A stretch of 64,000 nt of DNA from Vulcanisaeta moutnovskia 768-28 (GCF_000190315.1 NC_015151.1:1860001-1924000), one strand, 5' to 3'; numbered from the stretch's first letter, positions 8,375 to 17,417 are shown. Notes: generated from the letters alone by a model not told the origin. Program-made: numbers and translations.

Positions 8375-8800
8375 GTGGGTGATTCTCAGACGTGGATGGG
8401 GCTTAGGAGTACTAGGTATGTGAAGTATTGGTGTGCTTATCATTTTGTGTGGGTTCCTAAGTGTAGGAGGGGTGTTCTTGTGGGTGATGTTGCTGAATAC
8501 GCTAGAGGGGTTTTGAGGGAGGTTGCTGAGGGTATTGGGTGTGAGGTGTTGGCGTTGGAGGTCATGCCTGATCATGTTCACGTCCTCCTTCTATGCCCGC
8601 CACGCCTAGCCCCCTCATACATAGCGAATTATCTCAAGGGTAAGAGTGCCAGAAGAATATTGCAGAGGTTTCCGCAGTTGAGGGCTAGAGTTGGAAGGCT
8701 GTGGTCTAGGAGCTACTTTGTCGCCACTGTGGGCAATGTGACGGCTGATATTGTGGAGAGGTATGTTGAGGAGCAGTGGTCTAAGGATGAAAAGGTGTAG
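8375..8800 (+). CDS. tnpA: IS200/IS605 Y1 transposase TnpA
   Basis: 141 residues, the usual size for this single-strand transposase. The HUH metal-binding pair is in MPDHVHVLLLCPP and the nucleophilic tyrosine is in DIVERYVEEQ near the C-terminus. The start at GTG 8375 is used; an in-frame ATG at 8396 (MGLRSTRYVKY) is equally possible. It overlaps the start of tnpB by 14 bases, so the two are probably translated from one transcript. Confidence 0.92.
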   Translation: MGDSQTWMGLRSTRYVKYWCAYHFVWVPKCRRGVLVGDVAEYARGVLREVAEGIGCEVLALEVMPDHVHVLLLCPPRLAPSYIANYLKGKSARRILQRFPQLRARVGRLWSRSYFVATVGNVTADIVERYVEEQWSKDEKV

Positions 8801-10073
8801 CGTGGTTAAGCTAGAGCCAGATAGGGAGGCGGAGAATAAGCTCAAGCTACTATGTAGCATATCCTCCAGGCTTTGGAATGAGGTTAACTATGCTAGGAGG
8901 AGGCAGTTCTTTGAGAATAAGAGGGTGGACTTAAAGAACACATACAGGGAGTTCTATGGGAAGTATAAGGCGCTGATAGGTTCAGTCACGGCACAGCAAA
9001 TACTCAATAAGAACAATGAGGCCTGGAAATCCTTCTTCAACCTACTAAAGGCTAGGAAGGAGGGCAGGTTACCGCCGTTCATGAGGAGTGTAAGCCCGCC
9101 AGGCTACAGGAAGAGGTATGGCTCTAGGATATTGTGGGTTGTGCTTAGAAATGACCAGTATAAAGTAGAGAGAAGCAAAATAATCTTAAAAGGATTGGGA
9201 GCTATAGGTAGAATTGAAGTACAATACAAAGGGCTCATTCACATTAAAGGTAAGCAAGGCAGAATGGAGATACGTTACGATCCAGACTCCAGGACTTGGT
9301 ACGCCCATATAACATTTGAAATTTCTGAGAAAGCCGTTAGAGGTGTATGGAGGAAGATACCGGAAGCTCCTAAAGCAAGCTTGAGGGCGGGTATAGATAT
9401 TGGTATTAATAATTTATTTGCCGTATATATAGGGGATGGTAGAGCGTTTTTAGTTAATGGCAGGCCGCTTAAAGCCATTTCTTATTACTGGAAAGCTAGG
9501 ATAGCGAATTATCAGAGTACGCTTAATAGGTATGGATTGAGGACTTCACGTAGACTTAGAATTATGTACAAGAAGTGGAGGAGGCAGGTGAAACATTATA
9601 TAAATACTGCTGTTAGGAGACTTGCTGAAGAGTTATACAATGCTGGCGTATCTACCGTATATATTGGATACCCGAAGATGATTTCTCAGAATAACGGCAA
9701 CTTCAATACTGTACAAACATGGAGTTATGGGTATCTGTTAAAAAGGGTTTCCGAAGTTTTAGAGGAATATGGCGTTAATGTCGTTTTTGTGAATGAAGCA
9801 TATACATCATCATATTGCCCATTTCATGGCAATAAATGCGGAAAGAGAATAGCTAGAGGATTGTTCAAATGTACATCTCTAAACAGAGTATTCAATGCTG
9901 ATGTTGTTGGTGCGTACAACATTCTGGTCAAGGGAGACACCATAACCCCAAGTCCCCGAGATGGGATAGGGGCAACACGCCCGAGACCGGGCGTGGGGCT
10001 GAACCCCGCAAAGGCGGGGAATGTAGCCCCAAACCTCCTCGCCTTTGCAACACCAAGAACCCTCACCCTTTAG
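8787..10073 (+). CDS. tnpB: TnpB-family RNA-guided nuclease of the IS element, non-canonical RuvC site
   Basis: 428 residues from the ATG at 8787 inside tnpA. N-terminal WED/REC-like half, then the RuvC part: AGIDIGINNLF (first Asp), a Cys/His finger CPFHGNKCG...FKC, and NADVVGAYNIL (last Asp). The second RuvC strand reads VYIGYPKMI, so the Glu expected there is absent; the nearest acidic residue is in FVNEAYTSS just before the finger. The last 50 residues are the translation of the structured 3' RNA region and are probably not a protein domain. Confidence 0.9.
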   Translation: MKRCSVVKLEPDREAENKLKLLCSISSRLWNEVNYARRRQFFENKRVDLKNTYREFYGKYKALIGSVTAQQILNKNNEAWKSFFNLLKARKEGRLPPFMRSVSPPGYRKRYGSRILWVVLRNDQYKVERSKIILKGLGAIGRIEVQYKGLIHIKGKQGRMEIRYDPDSRTWYAHITFEISEKAVRGVWRKIPEAPKASLRAGIDIGINNLFAVYIGDGRAFLVNGRPLKAISYYWKARIANYQSTLNRYGLRTSRRLRIMYKKWRRQVKHYINTAVRRLAEELYNAGVSTVYIGYPKMISQNNGNFNTVQTWSYGYLLKRVSEVLEEYGVNVVFVNEAYTSSYCPFHGNKCGKRIARGLFKCTSLNRVFNADVVGAYNILVKGDTITPSPRDGIGATRPRPGVGLNPAKAGNVAPNLLAFATPRTLTL

Positions 10074-14104: not shown

Positions 14105-14476
14105 TTACGGGATCCTAATCACGGGGTCGGCATTATGGAAACCAATTAACCTAATTACAAATCGAGTGTTTGATAACGGACCAAGCAAGTAACGGCATTT
14201 TTTGAATGGACAAGCACTTGCCCTATGTTTCCTTAATTTGTTATCGCTGTAGCTCTCGGTCCTAACGAGTATTAGGTCACCATCACGAGTGTAAATAACT
14301 CTGTAAGGATAATGAATGAGGCCATCGTTCCATTTATCCCTAATAATAAGCTCAACATAATCAGCCATAGTCAAATCAACAAATAGGGAACTAATACTAC
14401 CCTGCTTATTATCAACGCGGTACTCCCTAATTACTAAGCCGCAACTATTAATATCCCTAACGACTTGCATTACCAC
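14105..14476 (-). CDS. hypothetical protein
   Basis: 123 residues, mostly beta-strand, with a cysteine pair in ACPFKKCRYLLG. No family recognised. It overlaps the upstream gene by 20 bases, so the two are translated together; the ATG at 14470 is an alternative start. Confidence 0.55.
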   Translation of the reverse strand: MVMQVVRDINSCGLVIREYRVDNKQGSISSLFVDLTMADYVELIIRDKWNDGLIHYPYRVIYTRDGDLILVRTESYSDNKLRKHRASACPFKKCRYLLGPLSNTRFVIRLIGFHNADPVIRIP

Positions 14477-15158: not shown

Positions 15159-15404
15159 AATATAATTACACAATAAGCGCATTTTAAGTTTATTGAATCA
15201 TGCACATGTACGTAAAAATACCGTGTGCAGGGCATGCACTGAAAAAGGTGCAATTATGATGCTTACAAGTTTTTGTCAATAGATACACTGGATATGGTGC
15301 ATCGAGGAAGCAATGATAATCATTACTTAAAGGAACCAGGGGTTTAATAACCATGGTGACTAGGCATGTAGGCTTGATAGTAATTAATGCCAACGCATGA
15401 ACCG

Positions 15405-15443
15405 CGAGGAAAATCTTCAGGGTTTAGCCCTGGAGAATCCTCG
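15405..15443. repeat. strong hairpin, possible solitary IS605-type end
   Basis: CGAGGA (15405-15410) pairs with TCCTCG (15438-15443), and inside CTTCAGGG (15415-15422) pairs with CCCTGGAG (15428-15435) around a TTTAG loop. The GGG-TTTAG-CCC tip resembles the terminal hairpin of the IS605 element in this window. It lies 32 bases upstream of the ATPase start, so it could also be a 5' RNA leader. The rest of the 15159-15475 gap shows nothing else clear. Confidence 0.45.
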
Positions 15444-15475
15444 TAGGCGATTTAGGCCAGCCCTGGGCTCGGGAA

Positions 15476-16333
15476 ATGAAGGTGGAAGGAAAAATAATGA
15501 GGATACTACTTGACCTAGGCGACAGGCCATTAACAGTGATAGGACCGCCAGGTTCTGGTAAAACCACAATGATAACTGCATTAGGACTGATGAGGCATAA
15601 GTTAGTGGGTTCGGCCGTATCTTATGTGACACAAAAGTCAAGTGATGCAGTAGGGATTATAATAAAACCATCAATACCTTGGGCATGCATACGTGATAAT
15701 CTATTCTTAATACTCGATTCCTATGAGGAATTAAGTACGAGACCTGGAATAACAATACTAACTTCCACGGCATATAGATATAAAACCTATAATAGCTATA
15801 TAAAATACTTGGGGTACCTGGCTAAGAATCCACGTAATACACATGCAGCATGGCTTTTGGAACGAATAATGCTACTACGTAATATAATAATTGAACCAAG
15901 CAATAATAATGAAAACAAGGGAATAACCACAATAATCCAGAGCAGAGACATTAGGGGAGTATACTTAGCAACAGCCCTAATACTCAACAGCATGTGTCAC
16001 CAAGGCAATAATAACGTGCTAATATTAGATGACGTAACAATACTGCCCATAAGAGACGATGCACTACTAAGGATAATTAGGATGACGAGAGGACTCACAA
16101 ACGTATGGATGGTGTTACACAGTATTGGTAAATTAAACATTGAAGACCTAAATACGCCGACAATAATAACAAGCCATAGTGGACCAGCCAAGTCACTATC
16201 AAGATTTAAAGAAATACTAAGCCAGATAAAGCCAGGGGAAGCGCTCTACATGGGTATTAATGAGCAACTGAAAATAAAAATACACGAAATAAAGGAACTA
16301 CGCAACAAACTGCTAAACGAAATAACGCAATAG
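15476..16333 (+). CDS. P-loop ATPase of unknown function
   Basis: 285 residues with a clear Walker A (VIGPPGSGKTTM, about residues 22-33) and Walker B (NVLILDDVTIL, about 183-193), then TNVWMVLHSIGK and PTIITSHSG, an arrangement seen in HerA/VirB4-like and related ATPases. The N-terminal part is short, so it is a bare ATPase domain. The start is taken at the ATG at 15476, and TAG at 16331-16333 is followed at once by the structured region. Exact family not recognised. Confidence 0.7.
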   Translation: MKVEGKIMRILLDLGDRPLTVIGPPGSGKTTMITALGLMRHKLVGSAVSYVTQKSSDAVGIIIKPSIPWACIRDNLFLILDSYEELSTRPGITILTSTAYRYKTYNSYIKYLGYLAKNPRNTHAAWLLERIMLLRNIIIEPSNNNENKGITTIIQSRDIRGVYLATALILNSMCHQGNNNVLILDDVTILPIRDDALLRIIRMTRGLTNVWMVLHSIGKLNIEDLNTPTIITSHSGPAKSLSRFKEILSQIKPGEALYMGINEQLKIKIHEIKELRNKLLNEITQ

Positions 16334-16475
16334 TCCATCATTATTACATCCACGGCAGGCAAACCCGTTAAAAATCCCCTTCCTCTTTTCAATCCCCCCG
16401 CTCAGGGGGAGGAGGAAGGAGAGGATGATGGATACCGAGGGACTGAGCCGATGGCTTAGTTCTCGGATATCCTGA
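16334..16475 (+). ncRNA. candidate structured RNA, block 1
   Basis: Directly after the ATPase stop. Pairings seen: TCCATCAT (16334-16341) with ATGATGGA (16425-16432); CCTTCCTC (16378-16385) with GAGGAAGG (16412-16419); CCCCC (16395-16399) with GGGGG (16405-16409); and an 18 bp hairpin with two small bulges from 16431 to 16471 (GATA/TATC, CCGAG/CTCGG, ACTGAGCC/GGCTTAGT with one G-U). No known family recognised; a box C/D reading (ATGATGG, CTGA, CGATGG, CTGA) also fits loosely. Strand is inferred from the neighbouring genes. Confidence 0.5.
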
Positions 16476-16532
16476 GCTGTATAGTATGATGAATCCCTGG
16501 AAAATGATTAATGATTTAAAAGAAAGGCTGAC

Positions 16533-16646
16533 ATCCGTCACCTGGATATTCATGGGGTGGGACCCGCCCCACCACTATGCTAGTGATAAGGGGCGGTGAC
16601 TGCGGAGTAGTCCGTAGTCCTGCCCCGTGGTATCCAGGTGACGGAT
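16533..16646 (+). ncRNA. candidate structured RNA, block 2: three-way junction
   Basis: A continuous 16 bp stem pairs 16533-16548 (ATCCGTCACCTGGATA) with 16631-16646. It continues as CATGGGG (16551-16557) with CCCCGTG (16623-16629). Inside are two hairpins: CCGCCCC (16564-16570) with GGGGCGG (16590-16596), capped by CACTA/TAGTG; and GACTGCGGA (16598-16606) with TCCGTAGTC (16611-16619), one G-U pair. Every arm pairs almost perfectly, so this is a genuine fold. It ends one base before the ATG of the RuvC-only protein. Confidence 0.65.
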
Positions 16647-17417
16647 ATGGATAGGGATAGGAAAGGGAAGGACGGGTATGTACCTGCCGTGGATGTAACG
16701 GCAATGGGCATTGATGTTGGTGTAAGGCGTTTTGTTGTTGCCTTTGTTGGTAGTAGGGCTAGGTTGCTTAATGATCTAGCGGTTGTATATGCTAGGCAGA
16801 ATGGCGTTTCGTTAGTGCCGTTAGGTATATATGATGCTATGACTAGGGCCTATGTAGTTAGTATTAATTATCCAGGTACAGATAAATACCGTGGTGTCGA
16901 GTTAACGAGTAACATCATCAGTAAAACACTAGGTGCCATAGTAAGGGCTATGCATAGTGTACAGAGGGTTCATAACACGTTAATCGGTCTAGTTCTTGAG
17001 GATCTCAGGCAGTTCAGTGGATATAAGCATGACTTAGTCAGGGCGAAGGCTATTTGGGATCTAATTACAAGCAGGTTTAGTGAGAGTGTTAGTAAATGCC
17101 CTGCTGTTAAGGTTTCTTGGTTCTGGATGAGTTATAGGGGCGAGGTAATCATGCCTACTAGGGATTCAATACCCATAGTGCTTGTTGAGCCTGAGTATAC
17201 GAGTAGTATATGCCCGAGATGTGGTACTTACTTAGGTAGGGTTAGGGATAAGGTGGTGTGTAATTACTGTGGCTTTGAGGGTGATAGGGATGTTATTGGT
17301 GCTATAAATGTGGCGCTACGAGGATTTTTAATACTAATGAAATGCGTTAGAGAGGGTATACTAGGGGTCACCCGAAGGCTCAGGGCTGGCTCTGTAAATT
17401 TCATATGCCTTAATTAA
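16647..17417 (+). CDS. RuvC-only TnpB-like nuclease, N-terminal half absent
   Basis: 256 residues from ATG 16647 (a GTG at 16638 adds three). RuvC-I MGIDVGVRRFVV begins at about residue 21, RuvC-II is GLVLEDLRQF, a zinc finger CPRCG...CNYCG follows, and RuvC-III is GDRDVIGAIN. All three catalytic acids (Asp, Glu, Asp) are present. Typical TnpB has about 190 residues of WED/REC before RuvC; here there are about 20, and the RuvC-I to II interval is only 95. No tnpA or right-end hairpin is present, and the 3' end overlaps cbiZ, so the gene seems fixed in place rather than mobile. Confidence 0.75.
   Translation: MDRDRKGKDGYVPAVDVTAMGIDVGVRRFVVAFVGSRARLLNDLAVVYARQNGVSLVPLGIYDAMTRAYVVSINYPGTDKYRGVELTSNIISKTLGAIVRAMHSVQRVHNTLIGLVLEDLRQFSGYKHDLVRAKAIWDLITSRFSESVSKCPAVKVSWFWMSYRGEVIMPTRDSIPIVLVEPEYTSSICPRCGTYLGRVRDKVVCNYCGFEGDRDVIGAINVALRGFLILMKCVREGILGVTRRLRAGSVNFICLN

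Follow-up and report, generated by a model that had tools for sequence, protein, structure and literature searches.

A conserved box C/D-containing structured RNA alongside a RuvC-only TnpB/Cas12f-like nuclease in Vulcanisaeta

The 64-kb stretch of DNA from a heat-loving archaeon analysed here (the window; positions 1860001-1924000 of the 2.30-Mb single-contig genome of Vulcanisaeta moutnovskia 768-28, NC_015151.1, called G000 in the genome comparison) carries a large structured RNA between the genes for a P-loop ATPase and a TnpB/Cas12f-like nuclease reduced to its RuvC half. What is conserved in the RNA architecture is its base pairing rather than its sequence; the architecture occurs as a single syntenic copy and almost always accompanies the RuvC-only nuclease. 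It runs 5'-H1-P0-(ATPase ORF)-P1-P2-P3/kink-turn-box C/D-three-way junction-P1-(RuvC ORF)-P0-3' (Table 1), and the two open reading frames (ORFs) thus sit in loops of one large RNA architecture. The most recognizable module of the RNA is that of an archaeal box C/D small RNA (sRNA), which points to the host proteins L7Ae, Nop5, and fibrillarin and also allows a regulatory reading. With a rough probability of 0.4, the domain closed by P1 acts as the scaffold of a ribonucleoprotein (RNP) that combines the nuclease with host box C/D and kink-turn proteins.

Table 1 Features of the RNA-nuclease locus, in window coordinates.
Feature	Position	Strand	Details
orf14457, divergent ORF, 241 aa	14457..15182	-	Co-inherited with the cassette; no known domain
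H1 hairpin upstream of ATPase	15405..15443	+	CGAGG...AGGGTTTAGCCC...CCTCG, then conserved TAGGCGAT; compensating changes in 7 genomes (alignment)
P0, 5' strand (outer long-range helix)	15455..15473	+	Ends 2 nt before ATPase ATG; swap test
P-loop ATPase ORF, 285 aa	15476..16333	+	Walker A GPPGSGKTT, Walker B NVLILDD; genus-restricted
P1 (16344-16359) and P1b (16364-16368), 5' strands	16344..16368	+	Begin 10 nt past ATPase stop; inverted repeat, swap test, covariation
P2 hairpin	16372..16424	+	Pyrimidine-rich 5' strand, GGGGGAGGAGGAAGG 3' strand; folds in 8/8 species
P3 hairpin	16425..16475	+	Flanked by AUGAUGG (16425-16431) and CUGA (16472-16475); kink-turn-like motif; stem covaries
Box C/D module	16486..16531	+	Pattern once in each of 8 loci
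Box C, D' guide, and box D'	16486-16492, 16493-16503, 16504-16507	+	Box C ATGATGA; box D' ATGA
Box C', D guide, and box D	16511-16517, 16518-16527, 16528-16531	+	Box D CTGA
Three-way junction	16533..16646	+	z = -10.0; covariation in helix 4; swap test
RuvC-only TnpB/Cas12f-like protein, 256 aa	16647..17417	+	D23, E118, D213/D215; CPRC/CNYC zinc ribbon
Nuclease ORF segment complementary to D' guide	16653..16658	+	AUCCCU/AGGGAU, in cis; own-versus-swapped guide test
P1b (16672-16676) and P1 (16683-16698), 3' strands	16672..16698	+	Within nuclease ORF, just upstream of RuvC-I motif
P0, 3' strand	17371..17390	+	Last nuclease codons; swap test

An earlier, sequence-only reading of this DNA had described two almost perfectly paired blocks between the ATPase and nuclease genes. 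Both are real, as their z-scores lie far beyond those expected by chance. The 322-nt region separating ATPase stop and nuclease start (folded as 16334-16655) reaches -149.8 kcal/mol (z = -8.85, 0/100 shuffles as good); the first block (16334-16475) alone has z = -4.77, and the three-way junction (16530-16649) has z = -10.0, matched by 0/200 shuffles. The partition of the first block did not hold, however, because its 5' part (16344-16359) pairs with 16683-16698 and not within the block. A repeat search shows these two segments to be a 16-nt perfect inverted repeat whose second arm lies inside the nuclease ORF. They form the core of P1, a long-range helix of 18-20 bp that closes the intergenic RNA, its strands ~330 nt apart. 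The outer helix, P0, joins strands ~1.9 kb apart and thereby links the start of the ATPase gene to the end of the nuclease gene across both ORFs, and the conserved H1 hairpin upstream of it begins exactly at position 15405, the start coordinate given in the earlier reading. The junction ends at 16646, directly against the nuclease ATG at 16647, as had been read from the sequence, and the nuclease Shine-Dalgarno sequence GGTGA (16637-16641) is part of its outer stem, on the 3' side. In the window and in genomes G007, G008, and G002 this GGTGA occupies the 3' strand of a 16-bp stem with the start codon directly after it, and in G006 and G004 the start codon lies nearby. Two of the relatives, G004 (L025:8750-9100) and G006 (L027:1720-1940), have a much enlarged junction with extra arms of ~100-190 nt; the junction domain therefore tolerates expansion. 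Nothing in the window matches Rfam. RNase P RNA of type T was considered and rejected, the genome's own RNaseP-T match (133.8 bits) being located elsewhere, and bulge-helix-bulge splicing of P0 was set aside on reasoning, given that the bulge polarity is reversed and that the ATPase stop precedes P1.

The comparison covers eight RNA-bearing loci, the window and those of seven same-genus genomes (G002, G004, G006, G007, G008, G010, and G011), and the intergenic RNA is alignable in all eight species with many compensating changes. In an alignment of five of them, a small and related set, 95.0% of cells are paired, and 21 pairs show two-sided changes compared with 7.1 in shuffles (0/500 as many). 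Sliding the partners by 1-3 columns leaves only 1-4 such pairs. The junction helix (helix 4) contributes two-sided changes at 9 of its 19 pairs, and pairs pass through G-U states. Because five related sequences are a small set, an alignment-free swap test was added, in which the 5' segment of each species was paired with the 3' segment of every species, both segments being cut by position relative to the ORFs. P1 strands fold better with their own partners than with foreign ones (-55.3 versus -38.8 kcal/mol, p = 5e-5), as do those of the junction stem (p = 8e-5). For P0 the mean is -47.3 kcal/mol with own partners and -29.0 with foreign ones, the own partner ranking first in all 7 rows and all 7 columns (p = 0.00016). 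The sequence of P0, like that of P1, is rewritten from species to species while the pairing persists. The P1 strands of G006 and G011 have wholly different sequences, yet pair over 10 to ~20 bp, and P2 of G011 has an entirely different sequence but still folds as a hairpin. The expectation that the stems would be conserved in relatives is thus borne out by covariation and swap tests.

Two elements of the intergenic RNA resemble known protein-binding motifs. At the base of P3, TGA.GG and GA are invariant in 8/8 species, and this base can be read as a kink-turn-like motif of box C/D type. Tentatively, the base of H1 (AUGA-RCC ... GGCGAU, 15395-15455) might form a third kink-turn. Downstream of P3, a search for the pattern RTGATGA-N10-13-[AC]TGA-N2-5-RTGANNN-N9-13-CTGA (20 kb per locus, 64 kb for the window, and 4.8 kb for G006) returned exactly one match per locus in 8/8 loci, always at the same place, and 0 in 60 Markov-resampled windows. 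The standard spacing of C, D', C', and D boxes in archaeal box C/D sRNAs is present in all eight, and the consensus is strand-specific, lying on the coding strand in every locus. The guide segments vary among species. No consistent complement to them was found in 16S or 23S ribosomal RNA (rRNA); transfer RNA was not searched. The D' guide pairs over 6-9 bp with the first nuclease codons in most species (own versus swapped guides, p = 0.0038; shuffled guides, 0/500). This pairing is moderate evidence, because purines abound in the region and G010 lacks the pairing. Pairing of the D guide with the P2 loop is not significant (p = 0.08). The sole Nop-domain match in the genome is a Nop5-type gene located away from the nuclease locus. 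From these motifs, the RNA would be predicted to form an L7Ae/Nop5 RNP that works with the nuclease or gates it.

The protein encoded directly downstream matches the TNB zinc ribbon of TnpB (Pfam PF07282, E = 6.6e-13), and its residues 19-227 align to the RuvC half of Cas12f2. Searched by sequence against the PDB, its C-terminal part matches structures of TnpB and Cas12f. D23, E118, and D213/D215 are invariant in all full-length relatives. The predicted structure has a RuvC-like fold (predicted local distance difference test score, pLDDT, 77.7), with Cas12/CasX and Cas12a as the best plausible PDB matches, at weak template-modelling scores. The RuvC-I motif stands at residue 23, the WED/REC half is absent, and a Pfam scan gave no OrfB_IS605, HNH, or Nop match. 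No homologue has a long N-terminal part. The sequence-only reading of a 256-residue protein that keeps the RuvC acids and zinc finger but lacks WED/REC therefore stands, and it extends to the homologues, which consistently lack the N-terminal half of TnpB. Nuclease frames of 247-260 aa are open in five genomes. The ratio of nonsynonymous to synonymous substitution rates (dN/dS) ranges from 0.14 to 0.19 for near relatives and from 0.4 to 0.5 relative to G011, estimates that are rough because dS is near saturation. These ratios indicate that the nuclease is under purifying selection. In G011 (L028:9700-10515) the RuvC protein, kept along with the RNA, is ~33% identical. A full-length TnpB with OrfB_IS605 and TNB domains is encoded elsewhere in the window (8751-10073, + strand), positionally unrelated to the RuvC-only gene; G007 matches only part of its C-terminus.

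When the eight sequences were used to build a covariance model of P2-P3-C/D, it matched exactly those eight among 45 genomes of the order, and all eight have the nuclease, so that the predicted co-conservation of RNA and protein, which co-occur almost one to one, is upheld. Among 81 genomes of the class, no WED/REC-less nuclease was found outside the genus, the matches there being ordinary TnpB zinc ribbons or fragments. The RNA, the ATPase, and orf14457 likewise have no relatives outside the genus apart from two marginal P-loop matches to the ATPase. No viral or phage relatives were found, nor did a scan of genome contigs reveal any. The locus has the order ligT-like gene, orf14105, orf14457, ATPase, RNA, RuvC protein, cbiZ. 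This synteny is kept in the same-genus genomes G007, G008, G010, G004, G002, and G006, and the gene order ATPase-RNA-RuvC, which the earlier reading had proposed to compare in other genomes, is thus conserved in the genus. There is one copy per genome at the same chromosomal position, and the previously noted lack of a transposase beside the locus was confirmed, a Pfam scan of the immediate neighbours finding no transposase domain. A comparison with G001, G005, and G009 in search of an empty site met only paralogous or broken contigs. We infer a chromosomal, vertically inherited (domesticated) unit rather than a transposon. G011 has lost orf14457 and the ATPase, of which only a C-terminal relic remains beside a shortened orf14105, and has retained the RNA and nuclease. 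These two therefore form an inseparable core, a tight link that also supports the RNP reading. In the fragmented assembly of G003 the locus is rearranged, and the P1 3' strand marks the exact end of homology to the relatives; P1 can therefore be a breakpoint. The contig still holds a relic of orf14457 at a distance of ~54 kb (L069:4129-4291); the ligT end is on another contig.

The remaining genes of the locus are less informative about function. The ATPase is under purifying selection (dN/dS 0.09-0.16), with intact orthologues in G007 and G010 and full-length homologues confined to the genus. Its match to Pfam AAA_22 (3.2e-4) falls below the cut-off, other P-loop matches are weak, and the PDB holds no match by sequence. 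The structural model was poor (pLDDT 54.7) and was not used. The divergent orf14457, also under purifying selection (dN/dS 0.10-0.13), has no match in Pfam or, by sequence, in the PDB, and its homologues are same-genus only. It is absent from G011, as is the ATPase, and is a putative member of the unit. Next to it, and co-inherited with it, is a small conserved ORF of 123 aa on the minus strand (14105-14476) with the motif CPF.xCRYLLGP and no convincing family match. Upstream of the ATPase, at 15353-15375, a GGTGA followed by ATG-stop (ATGTAG or ATGTAA) is conserved in 7 genomes and is preceded, ~25 nt upstream, by a TTTAAAG-like box, possibly marking a start-stop mini-ORF or a 5' end signal.

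In the proposed mechanism, the P1-closed domain of ~365 nt would be a functional RNA whose box C/D and kink-turn elements bind host L7Ae, Nop5, and fibrillarin. The resulting RNP would form with the nuclease encoded at the same locus, the RNA supplying the scaffold that WED/REC gives in TnpB. A single transcript could serve as either RNA or message, balancing nuclease output, because the RNA holds the nuclease Shine-Dalgarno sequence, the start region, and the first ~17 codons. Variable guides among species, which set this RNA apart from ordinary rRNA guides, also count for an RNP. Several observations weigh against it: the nuclease has no recognizable RNA-binding domain and one of its zinc-ribbon cysteines is lost in G011; G003 keeps an open nuclease frame (L024:10142, G003:C8) without RNA or ATPase; the ATPase is left unexplained by the model; an RNP has no obvious need of P0; and regulation by itself could account for the stems that hold the ribosome-binding site and start region.

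That last point leads to a somewhat less probable alternative, in which the RNA would be purely cis-regulatory: L7Ae and its partners would bind the operon messenger RNA (mRNA) at the box C/D and kink-turn elements, and the RNA would keep a dangerous nuclease off. The junction would hide GGTGA, P1 would hide the first nuclease codons, and P0 would couple ATPase initiation to the end of the nuclease gene. A ribosome at the ATPase stop, 10 nt before P1, would melt that helix and so make nuclease translation ATPase-dependent. The placement of GGTGA within a 16-bp stem, with the start codon adjoining in four genomes or nearby in G006 and G004, is consistent with such control, as are the cis pairing of the D' guide with the ORF start and the precedent of L7Ae repressing archaeal mRNAs through leader kink-turns, with the Shine-Dalgarno sequence masked (PMC5539422). 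However, a 365-nt multi-domain RNA and a 1.9-kb helix far exceed what a switch needs, the perfect stems seem permanent rather than switchable, and all four boxes and both guides are present, more than a simple kink-turn. In addition, the G010 nuclease has no ATG or Shine-Dalgarno sequence at the usual place, yet the whole RNA is kept there. The RNP is slightly favoured over regulation because the RNA exceeds switching needs, has four boxes, and persists in G010; the two readings are nevertheless compatible and not mutually exclusive.

Other explanations fit fewer of the observations. Archaeal C/D genes often overlap ORFs and ~28% of Pyrobaculum guides are orphans (PMC7994747), so an incidental sRNA was kept as a rival. 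The module, with its canonical geometry, would then be an orphan box C/D sRNA gene nested in the operon, with hairpins and helices around it that help in processing or in mRNA stability and no functional link to the nuclease. This is rather unlikely, given that the guides differ within one genus without a consistent rRNA match, that the module is found only alongside the nuclease, and that the helix-closed structure surrounding it takes in the nuclease ORF and covaries in P1 and P0. Somewhat less probable still is an OMEGA-like DNA endonuclease in which a single-stranded part of the RNA guides RuvC to foreign DNA, as a defence, or to a host site. The intact RuvC triad, the variable guides, and a cis-encoded RNA that shares sequence with the ORF, an overlap that TnpB omega-RNA has at the opposite end (PMC10278001), would suit it, but without WED/REC to hold a guide duplex the protein would need partners, and there is no repeat or transposon boundary as a guide source. 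Neither a guide nor a target was identified, and the reading as an RNA-guided nuclease is unsupported. That the inverted repeats act as DNA, in cruciforms or as recombination or replication sites, would fit the end of G003 homology at P1; G-U intermediates, box C/D motifs always on the coding strand, and helices 330 and 1900 nt apart make it very improbable. A decayed TnpB fragment beside chance inverted repeats has a precedent in C-terminal halves that often remain as relics, including 117-aa fragments in G010, and is refuted by dN/dS of 0.14-0.19, open frames in five genomes, massive covariation, and fixed synteny.

Both the RNP and the regulatory reading make this conserved, structured RNA a new one. 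A working partnership with the nuclease would show that a large RNA and host snoRNP-type (small nucleolar RNP) proteins can serve a bare RuvC domain, which would bear on the gain and loss of protein domains in RNA-guided nucleases and on their proposed kinship with box C/D RNPs. If it is regulatory, helices 330 and 1900 nt apart and a full box C/D module hold the coding regions of an archaeal mRNA, something far more elaborate than the simple kink-turn switches that a literature search turned up. That search matched the arrangement to no described system and found no published small-RNA study of the genus.

By the features tested, the locus is not TnpB/OMEGA, IscB, TIGR-Tas, or RNase P. With TnpB/OMEGA and Cas12f of the IS200/IS605 and IS607 families it shares the RuvC D-E-D residues, the TNB zinc ribbon, and a cis RNA overlapping the ORF. 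It differs in lacking WED/REC, a transposase, and element ends, in its single syntenic copy, and in an RNA that carries box C/D and kink-turn elements and lies 5', overlapping the first codons, not 3'. A large structured RNA directly 5' of a RuvC-type gene is the layout of IscB omega-RNA (HEARO) and other ornate RNAs, to which the earlier reading had likened it. The layout holds, with a conserved RNA 5' of the nuclease and overlapping its ORF, but the RNA is not an IscB omega-RNA: it has no Rfam match, the protein has no HNH domain, and the helices span ORFs. L7Ae-repressed leaders, of which the examples described are single small kink-turns (PMC5539422), share a kink-turn motif near the Shine-Dalgarno sequence of an archaeal mRNA; here that sequence lies in a junction stem rather than in the kink-turn, and repression is only predicted. 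The RUGAUGA-11-D'-3-C'-11-CUGA geometry of archaeal box C/D sRNAs bound by L7Ae-Nop5-fibrillarin is shared in all eight species, whereas here the module sits inside a ~365-nt helix-closed structure overlapping a nuclease ORF, and its guides are neither conserved nor rRNA-directed, the D' guide pairing in cis. TIGR-Tas (TasR) likewise joins a RuvC nuclease to an RNA that is box C/D-like and has two guide segments (PMC12045711). In contrast, the present nuclease has no Nop domain, its RuvC is of the TnpB/Cas12 type, the C/D boxes are true archaeal ones, and each locus has a single module, with no tandem repeats and thus no tandem guide array. There is a real chance that this combination of a TnpB-derived nuclease with a box C/D-type RNA is categorically new. 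It is conceivable, if doubtful, that it represents a new archaeal RNA-nuclease class, a box C/D RNP in which an ORF-spanning RNA recruits a RuvC-only Cas12/TnpB-like nuclease directed by the variable D/D' or another single-stranded part; such a class would be an independent, host-machinery counterpart of the box C/D-nuclease link proposed for TIGR-Tas.
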